Of a DNA stretch of 63,132 nucleotides, positions 13,736 through 34,917 are shown piece after piece; position 1 is the stretch's first letter; every line of letters begins with the position of its first letter. The notes beneath the pieces are model-generated. The model saw only the letters and a program-made list of their open reading frames with translations, made no database searches and was not told where the DNA came from. The stretch lies in the NCBI GenBank assembly GCA_012521375.1, contig JAAYMO010000100.1, forward strand, positions 1-63,132, read 5' to 3'. Source of the stretch: Clostridiales bacterium. Lineage in GTDB: Bacteria > Bacillota > Clostridia > Lutisporales > Lutisporaceae. A program made the translations under genes and the position numbers.

Positions 13736-15205
<1,470 letters not shown>

Positions 15206-15479: not shown

Positions 15480-16451
15480 ATGGAAAGAAATTTTGGTAAG
15501 AACTTTGATATTGATAAATATATAGAGGATACCATCACTGATATCAAAAATACAGTAGGGGATAAAAAACTCATCTGTGCATTAAGCGGAGGAGTGGATT
15601 CCTCTGTAGCGGCGGTTATGGTACATAAAGCAGTTGGAGACCAGCTTACCTGTATATTTGTAGATAATGGCCTTATGAGGAAGGGCGAAGGAGATCAGGT
15701 GATGGCTGTGTTTAAGGAACAGTTCAAGATGAACCTGATAAGAGTCAATGCACAGGAAAGATTCTTAAATAAGCTTGATGGAGTTTCTGATCCGGAGAAA
15801 AAGAGAAAGATAATCGGAGAAGAATTCATAAGGGTTTTTGAGGAAGAAGCCAAGAAACTGGGAGATATTGACTTTCTGGTACAAGGCACTATTTATCCAG
15901 ATATATTGGAAAGCGGAACCAAGAAAGGTGGGTTGGTCAAATCTCATCATAATGTAGGTGGCTTGCCCAAAGATATGAAGCTTAAACTTATAGAGCCAGT
16001 AAGGCTTCTTTATAAAGATGAAGTAAGGGAAGTAGGTTTAAAACTTGGAATCCCAGAAGACTTGATCTGGAGACAACCTTTCCCGGGGCCGGGGTTGGCA
16101 GTAAGAGTTTTAGGCGCCATTACCAGAGAAAAACTTGACATAGTCAGAGAAGCCGATGCCATTTTGAGAGAAGAAATTAAGAATGCAAATCTCCACAGAA
16201 GTATATGGCAGTATTTTACTGTTATACCTGATATAAAAAGTGTTGGTGTAAAAAACGATGAAAGAACCTATAGCCATACAATAATTATAAGAGCAATACA
16301 CAGCAAGGATGCTATGACGGCGGATTGGGCAAGAATACCTTATGAAGTTCTGGATAAAATATCATCAAGAATTGTCAGCGAAGTAGAAGAAGTAAATCGA
16401 GTAGTATACGACATAACTTCCAAACCGCCGGCAACAATCGAGTGGGAATAA
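15480..16451 (+). CDS. guaA: GMP synthase ATP-pyrophosphatase subunit, glutaminase domain absent
   Basis: A 323-residue protein equal to the C-terminal two-thirds of normal bacterial GMP synthase (~510 residues). It has the PP-loop [12 protein letters not shown] near residue 40, [37 protein letters not shown] and the C-terminal dimerisation end [10 protein letters not shown]. It adenylates XMP and aminates it to GMP with ammonia. The N-terminal class I glutaminase domain is missing: AAGGAG lies 7 nt before the ATG and the sequence upstream is repeat DNA, not a broken gene. This is the archaeal-style split form (GuaAb); a separate GuaAa glutaminase could be elsewhere. Confidence 0.93.
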
Positions 16452-23728: not shown

Positions 23729-26700
23729 ATGAGTAAGGTAAGAAGGATATTTATTGAGAAAAAAGCGGATTATGCAGTAGAAGCAAAGGCTCTTCTGACG
23801 GATTTGAAAGAGAATCTAGGCATAAAGGGACTTGAGGGTATAAGGATAATCAAAAGATATGATGTGGAAGGTATAAATGATGAAGTTTACGAAAAAGCAA
23901 AATACACGATATTTTCAGAGCCTCCTGTAGAGAATGTATACGAGGAAGAATTGGATTTGGACGAAAAGGACATGGTTTTTGCATCAGAATATTTGCCCGG
24001 ACAGTATGACCAGAGAGCAGATTTGGCAGCCCAATGTCTTCAGATTATGGGCATGGGTGATAAACCAGAGGTTAGGACTGCCAATGTGATTGTACTGAAA
24101 GGGAATCTATCGGAAGAAGAAATGAAAAAGATCAAGGACTATTATATCAATCCTGTGGAGATGAAAGAGGCAGGTCTCAAAAAGTACGATACTCTTACTG
24201 AGAAAGTGAATACTCCAAATAGTGTAGCTGTTTTTGAAGGTTTTATAGATATGGATGAAAAAAGCCTACAAAACTTTAAAGAAAAGCTAGGTTTAGCCAT
24301 GAGTTTTGAGGATCTAAGCTTTTGTCAAAGCTATTTCAAAAACATCGAGAAAAGAAATCCTACAATAACAGAAATAAGGGTTATAGACACATATTGGTCT
24401 GATCATTGCAGGCATACCACATTCAACACCATTATCGAGAATGTTGATATAGAAGAAGGCAAATACAAAGAAATCATCCAAAAAGCTTTTGAAATCTACA
24501 AGAATGCTAGAAAAGCCGTTTACAAAGATAGGGAAAAGCCCATGTGTCTTATGGATTTAGCCCAGATGGCAATGAGAGAGATGAGGATAAATGGGCAGCT
24601 TGATGATTTAGAAGTATCTGAGGAGATAAATGCATCCAGCATTGAAGTGGAAGCAGAAGTCGACGGTAAAAAAGAAAAGTGGCTGGTAATGTTTAAAAAC
24701 GAGACTCACAATCATCCCACCGAGATTGAGCCCTTTGGCGGAGCGGCCACCTGCCTGGGCGGTGCCATTAGAGATCCATTATCTGGAAGATCCTATGTCT
24801 ATGGTGCCATGAGAGTCACAGGAAGTGGAGACCCCAGAACTCATGTATCAAAGACTTTACCGGGTAAATTACCTCAGAGAAAAATAACTACCACTGCAGC
24901 AAATGGATATAGTTCCTATGGAAATCAGATAGGTGTGGCTGCAGGACAGATAGCAGAAGTTTACCATGAAGGTTTTGTGGCAAAGAGGATGGAGTTAGGG
25001 GCTGTTGTAGCAGCTGCTCCAAAGTCCAATGTGGTGAGAGAAACTCCAAAACCGGGAGATATAATAATTCTATTAGGCGGCAGAACGGGAAGGGATGGAT
25101 GCGGAGGTGCCACCGGATCATCTAAGGAGCATGATGAATTGTCTTTGATTACCGGAGGACCTGAGGTACAGAAGGGGAATGCACCTATCGAAAGAAGAAT
25201 TCAGAGGCTTTTTAGAAATCCCCAAGTCAGCACTATGATAAAAAAGTGCAACGATTTTGGCGCAGGAGGAGTATCAGTTGCCATAGGCGAGTTGGCAGAA
25301 GGACTATATATTGATTTGGATGCGGTGCCAACAAAGTATGATGGATTGGATGGTACTGAGTTAGCTATATCCGAGTCTCAGGAGAGGATGGCGGTACTAA
25401 TTGACCCAGAGAATGAGGAAAAGTTTATAAAAATGGCCTATGAGGAAAACCTGGAAGCAGTAGTTGTAGCAAAGGTTACGGATAATAGAAGGTTGACCAT
25501 GATTTGGAAGGAAAAGGCCATAGTTGATATTAGCAGAGATTTTTTGGATACCAATGGTATCAGGCAAAAAACTGATGTGAAGGTTTCTATGCCTAAAGCA
25601 GAGGATAATTTCTATAAGACTTATGAGTATAAAGATGAAAAAATTGATATAAAGAAAGCATGGCTGGAAAATCTGAAGGATTTAAATGTATGCAGCCAAA
25701 AAGGCTTAGTGGAAAAATTTGATGCCACCGCAGGTTCTGGTACTGTATTGATGCCCTTTGGAGGAAAATATCAGGCTACTCCCAGCGAAGGGCTTCTTAT
25801 GAAATTGCCTGTGCTAAAGGGAGATACCATAACAGGTACTGCAATGACCTATGGATATAATCCATACTTATCAAGCTGGAGCCCTTTCCATGGTGCCTTG
25901 TATGCGGTAGTTCATGCCGTATCCAAGATAGTGGCAATGGGAGGAGATTATAAAAGAGTGAGGCTGACTTTTCAAGAGTATTTTGAAAAGCTGGGCAAAG
26001 ATGAGCAAAAATGGGGAAAACCATTTGCCGCATTATTAGGGGCTTATTTAGCCCAGAAAAACTTGAGTATACCATCCATTGGAGGAAAGGACAGTATGTC
26101 AGGCACATTTCTTGATCTCAATGTGCCTCCGACTTTGGTAGCTTTTGCATTGGCTCCAATTGATGTAAGATATGCAGTTTCCCAGGAGTTTAAAGCTGCA
26201 GAAAGTCAGGTTGTGCTATTGCCTATTGTGAGAGATGAAAAGGATGTACCGGATTTTGAAGGATTGAAAAAAACCTACGAAAGGCTCCATGAGTTGATAA
26301 AAGAAGGTTATGTTTTGTCTTCTTCTACAGTAAAAGAAGGAGGCATAGCCGCTGCATTGACAAAAATGTGCTTTGGCAATGGAATAGGGATAAAGATCAC
26401 TGGAGATTTCATGTATGACAGACTGTTTACGCCGGATTTCGGCTCCATAATTATAGAACTGAAAAAAGATGCTGATATAGATGAACAGTTATCCGGAACA
26501 AATTATATAAAACTGGGAGAAACGTGGAATAAAAAATCTATCTATGTAAAAGATACTGAAATAGACCTTGAAGAAGCTTATGATTTCTGGAGCAAGCCTT
26601 TGGAAGATGTATTCCCTACAAAGGCAGAAAAAGCAGAAAAAGTATTTAATATTGAGTATAAAGAAAGAAGTACAAGAAAGCCTAATGTAAAATATGCGGC

Positions 26701-27499
26701 ACCAAGGGTGTTGATACCGGTTTTTCCAGGAACCAATAATGAATATGATACTGTAAGAGCTTTTGAAGAGGCAGGAGCTAAAACAGATATTATGATTATA
26801 AAGAATCTGACTCACCAGGATATAGAAGAATCAATGAATCAATTGGTTAGAAGAATTGATGACAGCCAGATATTAGTTCTTCTCGGAGACTTTAACAATG
26901 GTGATGTGCCTGATGGTTATGGGAAATTCATATCTACAGTTTTAAGAAATGGGTATGTAAAAGAAGCGGTGATGAATCTGTTAAATAAAAGGGACGGATT
27001 GATTTTAGGCATTGGCAACGGTTTTAATGCATTGATAAAACTTGGGTTGGTACCCTATGGAGATATAAGGGATATGAATGAGAATAGTCCTGCTCTTACT
27101 TGTAACAAAATCGGCCGTCATGTATCCCAATTTGTAAGGACTAAAGTAGTTTCTACATTGTCTCCTTGGTTTGCTTATTCAGAAGTGGGAGATATTCATA
27201 CTTTACCGGTATCCCACAGTGAAGGCAGATTTGTTGCCGGTGAGGATATGGTAAGGGAGTTGGCAGCTAAAGGCCAGATAGCAACCCAATATGTGGATCT
27301 TGACGGAATTCCATCTTCAGAAGTTCCCCATAATCCTAATGGATCGATTTGTGCCATAGAAGCATTAACAAGCCCTGATGGAAGGGTAATGGGAAAGATG
27401 GCTCATTCTGAGAGGATGGGTAACCATCTATATAAAAATATACCTGGGCTAAAAACGCAAAATATTTTCAAATCAGGAGTAGATTACTTTGCAAAATAA
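23729..27499 (+). CDS. purL: Phosphoribosylformylglycinamidine synthase, single chain, with degenerate glutaminase domain
   Basis: A 1256-residue large-type PurL: N-terminal domain, two AIRS-like halves with HNHPTEIEPFGGAATCLGG and SIGGKDSMSGT, and a class I glutaminase domain from ~residue 990. It makes FGAM from FGAR, ATP and an amino donor. In the glutaminase domain the nucleophile motif, normally GICNGFQ, reads GIGNGFN: Cys is Gly1096 (GGC, 27014-27016). The oxyanion segment, normally PGGFSxGDEPDG, reads LGDFNNGDVPDG. His1226 and Glu1228 (AHSER) remain. Glutamine hydrolysis is therefore unlikely; ammonia use or a helper glutaminase is inferred. ATG 23729 chosen from GGAG spacing. Confidence 0.95.
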   Translation: MSKVRRIFIEKKADYAVEAKALLTDLKENLGIKGLEGIRIIKRYDVEGINDEVYEKAKYTIFSEPPVENVYEEELDLDEKDMVFASEYLPGQYDQRADLAAQCLQIMGMGDKPEVRTANVIVLKGNLSEEEMKKIKDYYINPVEMKEAGLKKYDTLTEKVNTPNSVAVFEGFIDMDEKSLQNFKEKLGLAMSFEDLSFCQSYFKNIEKRNPTITEIRVIDTYWSDHCRHTTFNTIIENVDIEEGKYKEIIQKAFEIYKNARKAVYKDREKPMCLMDLAQMAMREMRINGQLDDLEVSEEINASSIEVEAEVDGKKEKWLVMFKNETHNHPTEIEPFGGAATCLGGAIRDPLSGRSYVYGAMRVTGSGDPRTHVSKTLPGKLPQRKITTTAANGYSSYGNQIGVAAGQIAEVYHEGFVAKRMELGAVVAAAPKSNVVRETPKPGDIIILLGGRTGRDGCGGATGSSKEHDELSLITGGPEVQKGNAPIERRIQRLFRNPQVSTMIKKCNDFGAGGVSVAIGELAEGLYIDLDAVPTKYDGLDGTELAISESQERMAVLIDPENEEKFIKMAYEENLEAVVVAKVTDNRRLTMIWKEKAIVDISRDFLDTNGIRQKTDVKVSMPKAEDNFYKTYEYKDEKIDIKKAWLENLKDLNVCSQKGLVEKFDATAGSGTVLMPFGGKYQATPSEGLLMKLPVLKGDTITGTAMTYGYNPYLSSWSPFHGALYAVVHAVSKIVAMGGDYKRVRLTFQEYFEKLGKDEQKWGKPFAALLGAYLAQKNLSIPSIGGKDSMSGTFLDLNVPPTLVAFALAPIDVRYAVSQEFKAAESQVVLLPIVRDEKDVPDFEGLKKTYERLHELIKEGYVLSSSTVKEGGIAAALTKMCFGNGIGIKITGDFMYDRLFTPDFGSIIIELKKDADIDEQLSGTNYIKLGETWNKKSIYVKDTEIDLEEAYDFWSKPLEDVFPTKAEKAEKVFNIEYKERSTRKPNVKYAAPRVLIPVFPGTNNEYDTVRAFEEAGAKTDIMIIKNLTHQDIEESMNQLVRRIDDSQILVLLGDFNNGDVPDGYGKFISTVLRNGYVKEAVMNLLNKRDGLILGIGNGFNALIKLGLVPYGDIRDMNENSPALTCNKIGRHVSQFVRTKVVSTLSPWFAYSEVGDIHTLPVSHSEGRFVAGEDMVRELAAKGQIATQYVDLDGIPSSEVPHNPNGSICAIEALTSPDGRVMGKMAHSERMGNHLYKNIPGLKTQNIFKSGVDYFAK

Positions 27500-27616: not shown

Positions 27617-27644
27617 TATTTTGACAACAAAATTATCTGGTTAA

Positions 27645-27770
27645 GTAGCTCATATAATGTCAGGAATATGGCCTGAGAGTTTCTACCAAACAACCGTAAA
27701 TTGTTTGACTATGAGTGAAATGTTCATTCTGTTTTTGAAAGGATGGGTTTCACTACCTATCCTTTTTTGT
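27645..27770 (+). promoter_or_regulatory. Purine riboswitch (guanine class) with intrinsic terminator
   Basis: The aptamer has P1 CTCAT/ATGAG, the conserved ATATAAT junction, P2 TCAGG/CCTGA closing loop AATATGG, the core AGTTTCTACC, P3 CAAACAA/TTGTTTG closing loop CCGTAAA, and GACTATGAG at the 3' side. The specificity base in GACTATG is C, marking guanine/hypoxanthine rather than adenine recognition. Downstream, AAAGGATGGGT (27738-27748)/ACCTATCCTTT (27755-27765) plus a T-run forms a terminator. Guanine binding should stop transcription of purEFMNHD; purL lies outside its control. Confidence 0.95.
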
Positions 27771-27836
27771 ACCAGTAATATTAAATTTTGATAAATAAAT
27801 AAAGTTTTAATATAAATGCTAATTGGAGGAGATTAT

Positions 27837-28346
27837 ATGGATAAGAAACCAAAGGTTGCAATTATTATGGGCAGTGATTCGGATTTGCCTATTGTTTCAA
27901 AAACCATAAAAGTACTTAAAGAATTCAATATTGAATTTGAAGCGAGAGTCATATCTGCTCACAGAACTCCCGATAAAGCCTCTCAATTCGCCAAGGAAGC
28001 GGAGAATATGGGCTTTGATATAATTATAGCTGCAGCAGGTAAGGCTGCTCATCTTCCTGGAGTTTTGGCAGCATATACTGTGGTTCCTGTAATAGGTATA
28101 CCTATAAAATCATCAGCATTGTACGGCATGGATGCTTTGCTTTCAATAGTGCAGATGCCTTCAGGTATTCCTGTGGCTACTGTAGGCATAGATGGGGCAG
28201 AAAATGCAGGACTGCTGGCAGTAGAAATGTTATCTATAAAATATGACTATCTGAGAAAAACTCTCAAAGATCGCAGAGAGAAAATGGCCCAAGAAGTTTC
28301 TAAAAAAGATGAAAAAGTAAAAATGGAAGAATTTAATTTTGATTAG
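27837..28346 (+). CDS. purE: N5-carboxyaminoimidazole ribonucleotide mutase
   Basis: A 169-residue class I PurE: IIMGSDSDLP phosphate-binding loop, SAHRTPDKA and the AAAGKAAHLPGVLA active-site segment (usually AGGAAHLPG). It rearranges N5-CAIR to CAIR in purine synthesis. First gene of the riboswitch-controlled operon, starting at ATG 27837 behind GGAGGAG. No purK is seen alongside. Confidence 0.95.
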   Translation: MDKKPKVAIIMGSDSDLPIVSKTIKVLKEFNIEFEARVISAHRTPDKASQFAKEAENMGFDIIIAAAGKAAHLPGVLAAYTVVPVIGIPIKSSALYGMDALLSIVQMPSGIPVATVGIDGAENAGLLAVEMLSIKYDYLRKTLKDRREKMAQEVSKKDEKVKMEEFNFD

Positions 28347-28357
28347 GAGATATGTAG

Positions 28358-29695
28358 ATGTGCGGTGTAGTTGGAATATATGATAAAGGAAATATCAATG
28401 CTGCCAACGGCGCTTATTATGGTTTGGTTGCTTTGCAGCATCGGGGGCAGGAAAGCGCAGGCATAGCTATTAATAATGATGGGATAATAACCTGCTACAA
28501 AGACATGGGATTTGTAAATGAAGTATTTGATGATAAGATACTAGGTTTACTGAAAGGCGATATGGCCATAGGACATGTAAGATATTCTACCTCAGGGGCT
28601 AATTTTGCAGCTAATGCCCAGCCTATAGTCATCAAATACAAAAATGGTAGCTTGGCAATATCACATAATGGTAATCTGGTGAATGCGGATTTATTGAGAA
28701 ATCAGTTGGAGGATCAGGGTTTATTCTTTAGCACCACTACCGATACGGAAGTTATTGCTGCTTTAATAGCGAGAAATTATAAAGGAGATATTATAGAAGC
28801 AATAAAGAAAACTTTGAAGACTATAAAGGGTTCCTACGCATTGACAATATTGACGGATAATAAGTTGATAGGTATAAGAGATGGGTATGGATTTAGACCT
28901 TTGGTTTTGGGCAAGTTGGAAAATGGTTATGCATTGGCATCAGAAAGCTGTGCTTTGGATACTTTAGGAGCCCAGTTTCTTAGAGATGTTAAACCCGGCG
29001 AAATAATAATGATAGATAAAGATGGAGTAAAATGTTTTGAAACCGAGGATATAGTTCCTAAGAAGGTCTGCTTGTTTGAATATATATATTTTGCAAGGCC
29101 TGACAGTATAATAGACGGTATCAGTATGTATAAGGCAAGAGAAAATGCAGGAAGGATATTGGCTGTAGAGCAGCCGGCTATTGCAGATACAGTAGTCTCA
29201 GTACCAGATTCTGGTACACCAGCATCCATTGGTTATGCCAGTGAATCTGGAATACCATATTCCATTGGCTTGATAAAGAACAGATACGTAGGTAGAACTT
29301 TTATACAACCAACCCAATCTATGAGAGAATTAGGGGTAAAATTAAAACTTAATCCATTGAAGGAAAATATTAAAGGGAAAAAAGTTGTAATGGTAGATGA
29401 CAGCATAGTGAGGGGCACAACAAGCAGGAAGATTGTACAGGCTTTAAGAGATGCGGGAGCAAAAGAAGTCCATGTGAGAGTAAGCTCTCCCCCAGTTATT
29501 GGACCCTGCTGTTATGGAATAAATACTCCTACTAGAGAAGAGTTAATTGGAGCAAGAAAAACTGTCGAAAGCATAAGGGAATATATCGGAGCAGACAGCC
29601 TGGGTTATCTGAGCATTGAGGGGCTGCTAACTGCTGTAGGCAGTAAAGGCGAAGGCTTTTGCAGTGCCTGCTTCAATGGCGATTATCCCCTATAA
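28358..29695 (+). CDS. purF: Amidophosphoribosyltransferase
   Basis: A 445-residue PurF that commits PRPP to purine synthesis. The N-terminal nucleophile glutaminase begins MCGVVGIYDKG, so the catalytic Cys is exposed after Met removal; LQHRGQESAGIA follows. The phosphoribosyltransferase half has the PRPP motif VMVDDSIVRGTTS. Late cysteines (GPCCYGINTP, EGFCSACF) fit the [4Fe-4S] cluster of the Bacillus-type enzyme. Unlike PurL and GuaA in this window, its glutaminase looks intact. Confidence 0.96.
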   Translation: MCGVVGIYDKGNINAANGAYYGLVALQHRGQESAGIAINNDGIITCYKDMGFVNEVFDDKILGLLKGDMAIGHVRYSTSGANFAANAQPIVIKYKNGSLAISHNGNLVNADLLRNQLEDQGLFFSTTTDTEVIAALIARNYKGDIIEAIKKTLKTIKGSYALTILTDNKLIGIRDGYGFRPLVLGKLENGYALASESCALDTLGAQFLRDVKPGEIIMIDKDGVKCFETEDIVPKKVCLFEYIYFARPDSIIDGISMYKARENAGRILAVEQPAIADTVVSVPDSGTPASIGYASESGIPYSIGLIKNRYVGRTFIQPTQSMRELGVKLKLNPLKENIKGKKVVMVDDSIVRGTTSRKIVQALRDAGAKEVHVRVSSPPVIGPCCYGINTPTREELIGARKTVESIREYIGADSLGYLSIEGLLTAVGSKGEGFCSACFNGDYPL

Positions 29696-29725
29696 GCGAG
29701 ACACCGGGGACGGTTCGCTATGGCT
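29693..29725 (+). repeat. GAGACACCGGGGACGG-type intergenic repeat
   Basis: Between purF and purM lies GCGAGACACCGGGGACGGTTC followed by GCTATGGCTC. It is related to GAGCCACCGGGACAGTTCTC and GAGCAGGGACAAACTGTTCC at 41246-41340. Confidence 0.5.
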
Positions 29726-29761
29726 CAAAAACTTTGGTTTCAAAAAAGGAAGGTGAAAAAG

Positions 29762-30802
29762 ATGGATGATAGATTGACATACAAGGATGCTGGAGTAGAT
29801 GTGGAAGCTGGATATGAAGCTGTAAAGCTTATGAAGGAACATGTAAAAAAGACCCATATAGCCGGTGTTATGGGAGACTTAGGAAGCTTCGGAGGCTTTT
29901 TTATGCCTGATTTATCTGGAATAAAAGAGCCAATCTTTGTATCAGGTACCGATGGTGTAGGTACAAAGCTTCAGATAGCATTTATGATGGATAAGCATGA
30001 TACCATAGGTATAGACTGTGTAGCCATGTGTGTAAACGATATCGCCTGTCATGGAGCCAAACCTTTATTTTTCCTGGACTATATTGGCACAGGCAGACTT
30101 AATCCTAAAAAGGCGGAAGCTATTGTCAAAGGAATCTGTGACGGTTGCATAGAGGCTGGATGCGCTTTAATAGGTGGTGAAACAGCCGAAATGCCAGGAT
30201 TTTATAAGGATGAAGAATATGATTTGGCAGGCTTTGCTGTAGGTATAGTGGATAAATCAAAAGTTATAAACGGTGAAAACGTAAAACAAGGAGATGTGCT
30301 TATAGGTCTCCAGTCCAGCGGGATACATAGTAATGGATACTCTTTGGTAAGGAAGCTTTTTTTCGGAATCAACGATTATAAGGTGGAGCATAAATTCCCT
30401 GAATTGGATTGCCTTCTTGGTGAAGAATTGCTAAAGCCTACAAAGATATATGTAAAAACTATATTGAACCTTGTAGAAAAATATAGTATCAAAGGGATTG
30501 CCCATATCACCGGCGGAGGATTCATCGAGAATATACCTAGGACCATACCTAAGGGATTAAAGGCCAGAGTAGAGCTGGGAAGCTGGGATGTACTGCCTAT
30601 TTTTAGGCTTATGAGAGATTTAGGCAAAATCCATGATGATGTACTATACAATACATTTAATATGGGAATAGGTCTTGTAATAATAGCAGATAAATCAGAT
30701 GTAGATGGCATTATGGAGAGTTTAAAAAACATGGGTGAGAAAGCATACATAATAGGTGATGTTGTAGCCGATGAGGGAGGAATAGAGCTTTGCCAAAAGT
30801 AA
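29762..30802 (+). CDS. purM: Phosphoribosylformylglycinamidine cyclo-ligase
   Basis: A 346-residue AIR synthetase: [13 protein letters not shown] at the start, [41 protein letters not shown] and [13 protein letters not shown]. It closes the imidazole ring of FGAM to AIR. ATG 29762 is preceded by AAGGAAGGTG; an in-frame ATG at 29720 falls inside the intergenic repeat. Its last codons overlap purN. Confidence 0.96.
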
Positions 30803-31425
30803 AGATCGGAGTTTTGATATCTGGCAGCGGTACTAATTTGCAGGCTTTGATAGATAATATTGAGAAAGGTTTAATCAATGGTGAGATATCTATAGTTATA
30901 TCCGATAAGAAGGATGCCTTTGGAATCCAAAGAGCAAAAAAACATGGTATAAATGCCGTAGAAATAGATAAAAAGAATTTTGCTGATAAAAATATCTTTA
31001 TGAAAGCTATAATGGATGAACTGGAAAAGCATCATGTGGAATTAGTAGTATTGGCAGGTTTTTTGAGCATATTATCCGAGGATTTTATAGAGAAATTCAG
31101 AAATAGGATAATTAACATTCATCCATCTTTAATACCAGCATTTTGCGGCAAAGGCTATTATGGGCAAAGAGTACATAAAGCAGCGTTAGATTATGGGGTT
31201 AAGGTTTCCGGAGCTACGGTTCATTTTGTAGATGAGGGAGCTGATACAGGTCCAATAATACTTCAGGAAGCCGTAAAGGTGGAAGATGATGATACACCTG
31301 AATCTCTTGCAGCAAGGATCTTAAAAGTAGAGCATAAGCTATTGCCCCAAGCAGTGAAACTATACTGCGAAGGCAGACTCACTATAGAGGGAAGAAAAGT
31401 TATTATTAGAACTCAGAATGATTGA
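30790..31425 (+). CDS. purN: Phosphoribosylglycinamide formyltransferase
   Basis: A 211-residue PurN using formyl-tetrahydrofolate. Motifs: [13 protein letters not shown], catalytic [10 protein letters not shown] and [13 protein letters not shown]. It starts at TTG 30790, 7 nt after GGGAGG and overlapping the purM stop by 13 nt, so translation is coupled. Formyl-THF ties this step to the formate metabolism encoded at 2-12 kb. Confidence 0.95.
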
Positions 31426-31680
31426 GCTAAGAGCTATGAATATTTGAACTATGTGCTATGAGCTAAGAACTAAGAACTATGTGCTATGAGCTAAGAACTA
31501 AGAACTATGAGCTATGAGCTAAGAACTATGAGATATTAGAAGTTAGAGCTCAGAGTTTGGGTATTCCTTTTCCGTACTGATGCGTGTTTCGTAATGCACG
31601 AAATATAATAATTTTTAGTGTTTTTGGTGTGTTTAGTGGTTTCATATAATTAGTGTTTTCAGTGGTTACAAAAAATAAGA
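31426..31680 (+). repeat. Composite non-coding repeat block between purN and purH, with 28-bp tandem repeats
   Basis: Built of GAACTATGAGCTAAGAACTA words; two perfect 28-bp copies run 31446-31473 and 31474-31501, with a degenerate third after. Then come a GGGTATTCC word (31559), TCCGTACTGATGC (31572) and a tail of AGTGTTTTTGGTGT/AGTGGTTTC words (31616-31670). Read on the minus strand, the order matches the block at 15206-15479. The block sits inside the pur operon; no promoter or gene was recognised. Confidence 0.75.
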
Positions 31681-31686
31681 AGGGTG

Positions 31687-33234
31687 ATGGTTTTGGTTAA
31701 GAGAGCAATTATTAGTGTTTCGGATAAGACAGGCATAATAGAATTTGCTAAAGAGTTAAGTGACATGGGAGTTGAGATAATATCAACCGGAGGTACTGCA
31801 AAGACATTGATCGATGCAGGCATAAAGGTAGTATCTATATCAGATGTGACAGGATTTCCTGAATGTTTGGACGGTAGAGTAAAGACTCTACATCCAAATA
31901 TTTTTGCCGGAATATTGGCAATGCGAGATAGAAAAGAGCATATGGATACTTTGGAAGAACTTAATATAAATACCATAGATATGGTAGTTGTAAATCTTTA
32001 TCCTTTTAAAGAAACCATAGAAAAAGATGGAGTCCTTTTGGAAGAAGCTATAGAAAATATAGATATTGGCGGTCCTTCCATGCTAAGAGCTGCCGCTAAA
32101 AACTATAAAGCTGTAACAGTTATCACCGATCCAGCTGATTATGGCATGATTTTAACTCAATTAAAAGAAACAGGAGAGGTTAACGAGAAGACCAGGTTTA
32201 AATTGGCAGCTAAGGTTTTCAACCATACAGCCCATTATGATTCCTTGATTGCTAATTATTTATGGGAAAAAGCAGATATGGAAAAGTACCCTCAACTGCT
32301 TACTCTCACTTTTGAAAAGGCCCAAGATTTGAGATATGGGGAAAATCCACATCAACAAGCTGCATATTATAAGGATCCTCTCAAGACTGTCGGTATGCTC
32401 CATAACGCTGAACAGTTAAATGGAAAGGAGCTTTCCTACAATAATATAAATGATGCTAATGCTGCTTTAGAATTATTAAAGGAATTTAATGAACCGGCAT
32501 GTGTAGCCATAAAGCATGCTAATCCATGCGGAGTGGGCATAGGTGAGAATATTTTTGAAGCTTATAAAAAAGCATATGAGGGTGATCCAGTTTCCATATT
32601 TGGTGGCATTGTAGCTGTGAATGAAGAAGTAGATGCAAGTACTGCTGAGGAAATGGCTAAAATATTTTTAGAAATTATTATAGCACCTTCATATAGTGAT
32701 GATGCTTTGAAGATACTGAAAGAAAAGAAGAATCTTAGGGTATTGAAACTGGACAGCATTAAGTTCAGGCCGGAAAAAGCTTTTGAGTTGAAAAGGGTAT
32801 CTGGCGGTTTGCTGGTTCAAGACTCGGATTATGCTGATTTTTCCATAGAAGATATAAAATATGTTACTGTGAAGAAACCTACAGAAGAGCAGATGAAAGA
32901 TTTGCTGTTTGCTTGGAAGGTAGTGAAACATGTTAAATCCAATGCAATTGTTATTGCAAAGGATGGTAAGACTTTGGGTATTGGACCCGGTCAGACCAAC
33001 AGAATCTGGTCTGCCCAGATGAGCATTGACAGGGCTGGAGAGCAAGTGAAAGGCGCAGTTATGGCATCTGATGCATTCTTCCCCTTTTCAGATGTGGCAG
33101 AAGCTGCTGCCAATGCAGGGCTAAGTGCTATCATCCAGCCCGGTGGCTCCATAAGGGATGAAGACTCAATAGAAGCCTGTAACAAGGCAGGTATAGCCAT
33201 GATATTTACAGGAATGAGGCATTTTAAGCACTAA
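31687..33234 (+). CDS. purH: Bifunctional AICAR formyltransferase/IMP cyclohydrolase
   Basis: About 515 residues. The N-terminal MGS-like cyclohydrolase domain starts [13 protein letters not shown] and has STGGTAK and DGRVKTLHP; the AICAR formyltransferase domain holds [10 protein letters not shown] and the KHANPCGVG motif. It performs the last two steps to IMP. AGGGTGAT overlaps ATG 31687; TTG 31693 is better spaced from it and may be the true start. It follows a 261-bp repeat block yet lies in the same direction as the rest of the operon. Confidence 0.95.
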
Positions 33235-33247
33235 AGGAGGTGCCAAT

Positions 33248-34501
33248 GTGAAAGTATTGGTAGTTGGAAGCGGTGGAAGGGAACATGCGATAATATGGAA
33301 GTTGCTTCAAAGCCCTAAAGTATCTTATGTTTACTGCGCTCCCGGCAATGGGGGCATAAGACAGATGGCAGAATGCGTTGACATAAAAGCAGATGATATA
33401 GAAGGATTATGCCAATTTGCAAAAAAACATAAAATAGATCTTACAGTAGTAGGGCCTGAACTGCCTTTAAGCCTTGGAATAGTAGATGTTTTTGAGAAAG
33501 AGGGCTTAAGAATATTTGGACCCAGAAAAAATGCTGCTATAATAGAGAGCAGTAAAGCTTTTGCAAAGGATTTCATGCAGAAATATGGTATACCTACTGC
33601 ACAATATAAGATTTATGAAGATGCGACAAAAGCAAAAGAGCAAATAGACAGCTTTGGGTTTCCAGTTGTTATAAAGGCAGATGGATTGGCAGCAGGAAAA
33701 GGCGTAATAATAGCTGATACTAAAGAAGAAGCAATAAAAACTATAGATATGGTGATGAGGGATAGACATTTTGGCCAAGCAGGAGACAAAGTAGTAATTG
33801 AAGAGTTTTTACAGGGTAAGGAAGCATCCATACTAGCTTTTGTAGATGGGAAAACTGCTGTACCTATGGTAAGTGCTCAGGATTACAAGAGAACCTACGA
33901 TGGAGATTTAGGTCTAAACACTGGAGGTATGGGAGCCATTTCTCCAGCGCCCCATTATGATGAAAAGGTTGCAACTGATGTTATGGAGGAGATTATAAAG
34001 CCTACAGTAGAGGCCATGAAAAGAGAAAACAGACCTTACAAAGGTGTGTTGTATTTTGGATTGATGATTACAAAAGATGGACCTAAGGTAATTGAATACA
34101 ACTGTCGCTTTGGAGACCCGGAGACAGAGGCAGTGCTCCTCAGGCTTGAAAGCGATTTGGTAGAGATAATGGAAGCTGTTTTAGATGAAAAGCTTCATGA
34201 AATGGACATTGAGTGGAGTGAAAATGCAGCTATGTGTGTGGTAATGGCTTCTGGTGGATATCCGGTAAGCTTTGAAAAAGGTTATGAGATAAAAGGACTT
34301 GAGAATGCAGAGCAAGGAATAGTATTTCATGCCGGCACCAAGTATATAGACGGCAAGATTGTTACCGATGGTGGACGTGTATTGATATTTTCCGCTTTAG
34401 GCAAAACTTTAGATGAAGCCAGAGCTATTGTATATGCAGATATGGAAAAGGTGAATTTCAAAGATTGCCACTATAGGCGGGACGTAGGTTTAATAAGGTA
34501 G
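33248..34501 (+). CDS. purD: Phosphoribosylamine-glycine ligase
   Basis: A 417-residue ATP-grasp enzyme: MKVLVVGSGGREHAI at the N-terminus, VIKADGLAAGKGVI, DLGLNTGGMGAISPAP and EYNCRFGDPETEAV. It joins phosphoribosylamine to glycine. GTG start with AAAGGAGGTG just upstream, 13 nt after purH. Last gene of the cluster; purB, purC and purK are not in this window. Confidence 0.96.
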   Translation: MKVLVVGSGGREHAIIWKLLQSPKVSYVYCAPGNGGIRQMAECVDIKADDIEGLCQFAKKHKIDLTVVGPELPLSLGIVDVFEKEGLRIFGPRKNAAIIESSKAFAKDFMQKYGIPTAQYKIYEDATKAKEQIDSFGFPVVIKADGLAAGKGVIIADTKEEAIKTIDMVMRDRHFGQAGDKVVIEEFLQGKEASILAFVDGKTAVPMVSAQDYKRTYDGDLGLNTGGMGAISPAPHYDEKVATDVMEEIIKPTVEAMKRENRPYKGVLYFGLMITKDGPKVIEYNCRFGDPETEAVLLRLESDLVEIMEAVLDEKLHEMDIEWSENAAMCVVMASGGYPVSFEKGYEIKGLENAEQGIVFHAGTKYIDGKIVTDGGRVLIFSALGKTLDEARAIVYADMEKVNFKDCHYRRDVGLIR

Positions 34502-34712
34502 GCTCTTTTAGTTGGCTATTTGTTAAAGATTTAATGCCTGTATCAACTTTGGTGTTCTTAGTTCTGGCTTGTTGCGTGCTACTAGCTACGAGAAGTCAGG
34601 GTATTCCTATTGGGTCTTTGTAGCTAATCTAAGTAAGCTACATCTGTCTGCATATTAGATATGTACTTCAGATATAGGAGTTCGCTTTGCCAGTTCTATA
34701 GCTTGAACTCAC

Positions 34713-34792
34713 AAAAAGCCTAACGGCATCCAAAGGACATCCATGTCCTGGATGCCTAGGCTGACATCCGTGTCAGCCTTACGGCTTTTTTT
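34713..34792 (+). terminator. Nested palindrome cluster, terminator-like; possible end of pur operon
   Basis: AAAAAGCC (34713-34720) pairs with GGCTTTTT (34783-34790). Enclosed are GGCATCC (34725-34731)/GGATGCC (34750-34756) holding GGACAT (34735-34740)/ATGTCC (34743-34748), then GGCTGACA (34759-34766)/TGTCAGCC (34771-34778). The T-run after GGC makes it a plausible terminator for purD. Confidence 0.7.
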
Positions 34793-34917
34793 GTTCGTTC
34801 TTCGCTAAGAACTGGTAACAAAGCTCACAATATATCTTCAGCACATATCTAATATGCAGTTACAGCAACGTTCTCCTATACAATAATTTCTTTATCTTAG
34901 CAAGTTATAGTAACTAA

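Follow-up and report, generated by a model that had tools for sequence, protein, structure and literature searches.

A Lutispora-like anaerobe has lost the nucleophile and several conserved loop residues of the glutaminase domain of its FGAM synthase, PurL, and has deleted the corresponding domain from the neighbouring GMP synthase, GuaA. It shows no gene for glutamine synthetase, so it probably builds purines from free ammonia. This switch appears to have happened many separate times in Clostridia, with at least about 8 origins of a Cys-less PurL among those examined.

Results

The window analysed here is a 63,132-nucleotide stretch of DNA (contig JAAYMO010000100.1 of assembly GCA_012521375.1). 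It contains the following features, all on the + strand. Other genomes of our sample of Clostridia are designated by G followed by a number.

13736-15205 (+): guaB, IMP dehydrogenase (TIGR01302), neighbour of guaA
15480-16451 (+): guaA, GMP synthase reduced to the ATP-pyrophosphatase part (323 aa), N-terminal glutaminase domain absent
23729-27499 (+): purL, FGAM synthase of the single-chain clostridial type (TIGR01857), 1256 aa
23729-26683 (+): FGAM synthetase part of PurL (residues 1-985), conserved
26684-27496 (+): glutaminase domain of PurL (GATase_5, PF13507; 252 bits), inferred to be catalytically disarmed but predicted to be folded
26726-26749 (+): PGTNNEYD, normally PGTNCEYD (C1004N)
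26882-26917 (+): LGDFNNGDVPDG, altered oxyanion-hole loop region, normally PGGFSxGDEPDG
27008-27028 (+): GIGNGFN, nucleophile elbow, encoded by ggc att ggc aac ggt ttt aat; codon 27014-27016 is GGC, Gly1096 in place of Cys
27206-27232 (+): PVSHSEGRF, conserved HGEG loop with G1164S
27398-27418 (+): MAHSERM, catalytic His1226 and Glu1228 retained
27630-27731 (+): purine riboswitch aptamer between purL and purE (Rfam RF00167, 90.7 bits)
27816-28346 (+): purE (TIGR01162)
28358-29695 (+): purF (TIGR01134), with catalytic Cys1 (MCGVVG) and the SHNGN loop retained
29720-34501 (+): purM, purN, purH and purD, the rest of the de novo purine operon, identified as open frames

PurL is a full-length member of the TIGR01857 family, with a score of 1854.7 bits against a cut-off of 1057 over profile positions 1 to 1239. 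An earlier note, made from the sequence alone, had reported a PurL with Gly1096 in place of the nucleophile, altered oxyanion and PGTNCEYD loops, and conserved His1226 and Glu1228. Translation from the ATG at 23729 confirmed this observation in full, including the residue numbers, and the invariant columns of an alignment place the catalytic His and Glu at these two positions. In the oxyanion-hole region, PGGFS is replaced by LGDFN and GDEPDG by GDVPDG. C1004 is a conserved neighbour and not one of the catalytic residues. The note missed a further change, from SHGEGR to SHSEGR.

We next asked whether these changes exceed chance. Compared with 53 Cys-intact PurLs, 10 of 80 near-invariant positions are changed in the glutaminase part (C1004N, P1052L, G1054D, S1056N, E1060V, S1064Y, C1096G, Q1100N, T1122A and G1164S), but 0 of 98 in the synthase part. 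Using G017 and G020 as outgroups, the synthase part shows 53 changes unique to the window and 50 unique to the sister species Lutispora thermophila, whereas the glutaminase part shows 35 and 4, respectively. The acceleration is thus confined to the glutaminase domain. Nevertheless, pairwise dN/dS is 0.09 to 0.15 in this domain and about 0.07 in the synthase part where synonymous sites are not saturated, so the domain is still constrained. An AF2 model built from 30 related domains keeps the class I glutaminase fold (pLDDT 82.5, pTM 0.87) and matches Salmonella PurL best. The two lowest-confidence stretches, with pLDDT below 50, are the altered loop at residues 70 to 76 of the model and residues 241 to 244.

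The note had proposed, as a check of its claim, to determine whether the Cys-to-Gly change is fixed in a clade. In the window's own genus it is not: four species, L. thermophila DSM 19022 (G021), G017, G018 and G020, keep GICNGFQ, PGGFSGGDEP(D/G)G and PGTNCEYD. The change is private to this species in our sample, although it recurs independently elsewhere.

We then examined the surroundings of purL and the rest of the genome. The guaA gene lies 7 kb upstream. Its product matches the ATP-pyrophosphatase and GMP_synt_C part (TIGR00884, 511.6 bits; PF00958), but the NF000848 profile aligns only from position 192 of 512 and there is no GATase Pfam match. The open frame has 324 codons, as opposed to 510-517 for the full enzyme with Cys in L. 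thermophila and G017. The gene has its own ATG behind aaggag, with a gap of 275 bp between guaB and guaA. In the genome (2.84 Mb, 308 contigs, 97% complete), a search with PF13507 returned only the Cys-less PurL domain, and PF00117 returned two matches, CTP synthase (PyrG) with its Cys and a C26-type hydrolase with Cys. Hence, no PurQ-type glutaminase and no separate GuaA glutaminase were seen, within the limits of one draft assembly whose absences are partly echoed by relatives. Glutamine synthetase (PF00120) gave no candidate in this genome and no match in G020, G018 or G014, the latter from another genus of the same family, while L. thermophila has two. In contrast, the glutaminase of PurF looks intact. 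The purine riboswitch is conserved in the family and is also present in L. thermophila, G017 and G014, and purM, purN, purH and purD used as queries recovered the same gene order in other genomes.

A sample of 391 genomes of the class was searched, and about 160 PurL glutaminase domains were read. Cys-less PurL was found in G014, G190/G250, G142, G092, G056, G287, G089, G185/G327, G083/G179, G157 and G156, and as second copies in G032, G280 and G231. Many hits of the first pattern searches were not PurL and were dropped. On a tree of the synthase part alone, which leaves out the glutaminase columns, the state changes 9 times with 68 rows, at least 7 of them forced by well-supported branches, and 11 times with 71 rows, at least 8 of them forced. 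In f46 (a family), G156 and G089, the His and Glu are gone too, showing that loss can proceed further. Cys-less purL genes of seven other genomes (G083, G179, G157, G089, G156, G014 and in part others) remain in full purine operons, several with a purine riboswitch.

The replacement is Gly in 16 of 18 rows and Ser in 2. Gly first seemed to be the only residue allowed, but the first pattern search was biased towards it. Of 100 further PurL domains read without regard to the residue, 97 had Cys, and Ser was found in G287 and G092. Gly nevertheless also dominates among the sequences found by domain search. A likely reason is that the nucleophile elbow holds a strained backbone angle that Gly and Asn tolerate; at the same place, GuaA of G190/G250 has Asn and TrpG of G190 has Gly.

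We investigated whether other amidotransferases are affected in the same genomes. Of 9 genomes with a Cys-less PurL as sole copy and a listed GuaA, 8 have a lost, decayed or Cys-less GuaA glutaminase, against 7 of 85 with intact PurL (Fisher p 4.8e-7). This test ignores shared ancestry, and an independent-pairs test goes 3.4 v 0 in the same direction but has too few pairs to reach significance. The Cys-less copies of G032, G280 and G231 sit beside an intact PurQ or PurL and were left out, and the short GuaA frames of G380 and G149 are contig ends rather than losses. GuaA of f46 and G156 was not placed. The one exception is G287, with PurL Cys to Ser and intact GuaA. Conversely, GuaA loss occurs with intact PurL in G020, G004, G005, G191, G065, G225 and G386, suggesting that GuaA often goes first. 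In genus g77 of family f22, the PurQ form of the same change is found, with Ser for Cys in G128 and G101 together with single-domain GuaA.

PurF starts TTG-Ser-Gly in G083, G179, G157, G089 and G156 and Met-Gly-Gly in G014, in place of Met-Cys-Gly, each behind a plausible ribosome site. The Asn of the SHNGN loop is Asp in G014 and the others. CTP synthase was not found in G014, G190, G250, G142, G089, G185, G327 or G156, for which we have no explanation. A perfect link between the losses of glutamine synthetase and of the PurL cysteine was ruled out, as G190, G250, G142 and G089 have a Cys-less PurL but still have a glutamine synthetase.

Discussion

The most likely interpretation, in which we have fairly high confidence, is that this PurL is an FGAM synthase whose glutaminase half has lost its nucleophile and part of its oxyanion and substrate loops but is kept as a folded structural part, so that FGAR is aminated with free ammonia instead of glutamine-derived ammonia. 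It would be one step of a wider move from glutamine to ammonia in this lineage, in which GMP synthase has shed its glutaminase domain and glutamine synthetase appears to be gone. PurF and CTP synthase still look glutamine dependent, indicating that glutamine is still used. The sequence changes, the GuaA deletion, the lack of detected replacements and the recurrence in other Clostridia were observed directly, whereas the loss of glutaminase activity, the use of free ammonia in vivo and a high-ammonia life as the reason are inferences, as neither glutamine hydrolysis nor activity with ammonium was assayed. The interpretation of the earlier note is thus partly supported. Free ammonia is the most likely donor and the domain is kept under purifying selection, but the partner glutaminase that the note offered as an alternative is not supported, with none found in a 97% complete genome, and neither is ADP binding by this domain, since in Salmonella PurL the auxiliary ADP sits in the synthetase part.

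Amidotransferase synthase sites accept ammonia in vitro, and glutamine is used in vivo because free ammonia is usually low (PMC3376133). In a cell with much ammonia or little glutamine, the glutaminase can be lost. In single-chain PurL the domain packs against the synthase (PMC3815217), so point inactivation is easier than deletion, whereas in GuaA the glutaminase is an N-terminal module that can be dropped. This fits point loss in PurL and deletion in GuaA. Lutispora is mentioned in studies of protein-fed and ammonium-loaded digesters, which fits but is not proof for this organism.

A broader hypothesis, about as likely as not, is that free ammonia has repeatedly replaced glutamine as the nitrogen donor of nucleotide synthesis in Clostridia, and that several stages are visible. 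The GuaA glutaminase would go first (G020, G065, G191), then that of PurL (window, G142), then Cys1 of PurF. At the far end, G014 has Cys-less PurF and PurL, GuaA without glutaminase, and no glutamine synthetase, CTP synthase or PF00117 glutaminase detected. The order of losses in the genus is unsettled, because the PurL tree puts the window with L. thermophila (support 87, not among the branches marked as well supported) and the GuaA tree puts it with G020 and G014.

Among the alternatives, a separate glutaminase might dock on PurL and GuaA and supply ammonia, as PurQ does for small PurL. Many PurL enzymes use separate glutaminase subunits (PMC3376133, PMC3815217). Archaeal GMP synthases do so as well, and PyrG and the C26-type hydrolase exist in the genome. 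However, the profile searches found no other candidate in this 97% complete genome, the PurL glutaminase domain still occupies the docking place, and glutamine synthetase was not found, making this unlikely. Relaxed selection alone, with purines salvaged and PurL on its way to a pseudogene, could account for the domain-specific acceleration, but it is less likely still. The near-invariant synthase positions are all unchanged, the open frame is intact, purE-F-M-N-H-D is complete with a conserved riboswitch, and dN/dS is about 0.1 in both parts. Decay confined to the glutaminase is not what loss of the whole pathway gives. It is very unlikely that the glutaminase works with another nucleophile. 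His1226 and Glu1228 are retained, but the oxyanion-loop, Cys and Gln1100 positions are all changed and Gly has no nucleophilic side chain. Finally, although the assembly is single and fragmented, an artefact can practically be dismissed, with ten conserved positions changed in separate loops, a clean open frame without frameshift and the same kind of loss in many unrelated genomes.

Textbook amidotransferases make ammonia from glutamine and pass it through a tunnel because free ammonia in cells is usually scarce. Repeated disarming of the glutaminase in PurL, GuaA and PurF of free-living bacteria would show that whole pathways can run on ammonia in vivo. It would provide natural ammonia-only enzymes for studying how ammonia enters the tunnel, and it would predict insensitivity of those enzymes to glutamine analogues. 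It would also warn that automatic annotation as "glutamine-hydrolyzing GMP synthase" or FGAM synthase hides the change.

A 2012 survey listed guaA as fused in 100% of 730 genomes and no purL or guaA without a glutaminase component (PMC3376133), whereas here both are affected in one genome; that survey counted genes, not active-site residues. Among the families compared, only NAD synthetase had ammonia-only forms. The short NAD synthetase is an amidotransferase family member that uses free ammonia in vivo, and the present GuaA is the same in form, with the synthetase domain only. We found no report of natural Cys-less PurL or of single-domain bacterial GuaA in the literature searched, which lacked most subscription journals. 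In the archaeal two-subunit GMP synthase (GuaAa + GuaAb) the ATP-pyrophosphatase part is likewise encoded alone, but no glutaminase subunit gene was found in this genome, and its GuaA groups with related full-length clostridial GuaA rather than as a separate outlying lineage, in a tree that included no archaeal sequences.

Relative to single-chain PurL (Salmonella 1T3T; clostridial TIGR01857), the window's enzyme shares the domain order, the synthase part and the predicted fold of the glutaminase domain. The nucleophile Cys and several conserved active-site loop residues are replaced, and it should not use glutamine. The herpesvirus FGAM-synthase-like tegument proteins (TIGR01739, a weak match here) are PurL relatives whose glutaminase part has diverged, but they are viral proteins with other roles, whereas here the synthase is intact and in a purine operon. 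The closest functional parallel is vertebrate carbamoyl-phosphate synthetase I, an ammonia-using enzyme that keeps a glutaminase domain whose Cys is replaced. It belongs to a different synthase family and pathway, Ser replaces Cys there and Gly here, and it represents an animal lineage as opposed to repeated loss in bacteria.

RNA elements around the purine genes

Rfam searches placed two RNA elements beside the purine genes of the window:
27630-27731, purine riboswitch, after purL and before purE
34677-34831, minus strand, TwoAYGGAY RNA (RF01731, 57.4 bits), just downstream of purD and on the opposite strand

The purine riboswitch lies after purL and before purE, so that purL itself is upstream of the switch. 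The same order was found in Lutispora thermophila, in G017, a species of the same genus, and in G014, a genome of the same family but another genus.

Other amidotransferases and CTP synthase

We next considered the other amidotransferases of the Clostridia genomes examined (G numbers; L numbers denote individual loci). In some genomes with a Cys-less PurL, PurF lacks its N-terminal Cys, which is replaced by Ser or Gly (loci L199, L200, L201, L202, L205 and L216). In G190, TrpG has Gly in place of the catalytic Cys (LGIGLGM; locus L123) in an otherwise normal trp cluster. In G128 and G101, PurQ has Ser in place of Cys (GISNGFQ; loci L044 and L045). These two genomes belong to a genus whose GuaA has no glutaminase domain, whereas a third species, G172, keeps the Cys. 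A profile search for CTP synthase (PF06418) returned no match in G014, G190, G250, G142, G089, G185, G327, G156, G378, G363 or G231, although most of these genomes are over 90% complete, and how they make CTP is unclear.

Cys-less PurL also occurs in addition to intact enzymes. G032, G280 and G231 carry a Cys-less PurL, and in G032 and G280 a decayed GuaA, as an extra copy beside intact ones (loci L210, L211, L206, L207 and L212). The GuaA protein of G344 (locus L251) keeps the GICYG motif but has QFYLD where the catalytic QFHPE is expected, and it is probably another dead glutaminase. The single-domain GuaA of the window (15480-16451) would be named "glutamine-hydrolyzing GMP synthase" by NCBIfam, with 536 bits against a cut-off of 400, although the glutaminase part is absent.
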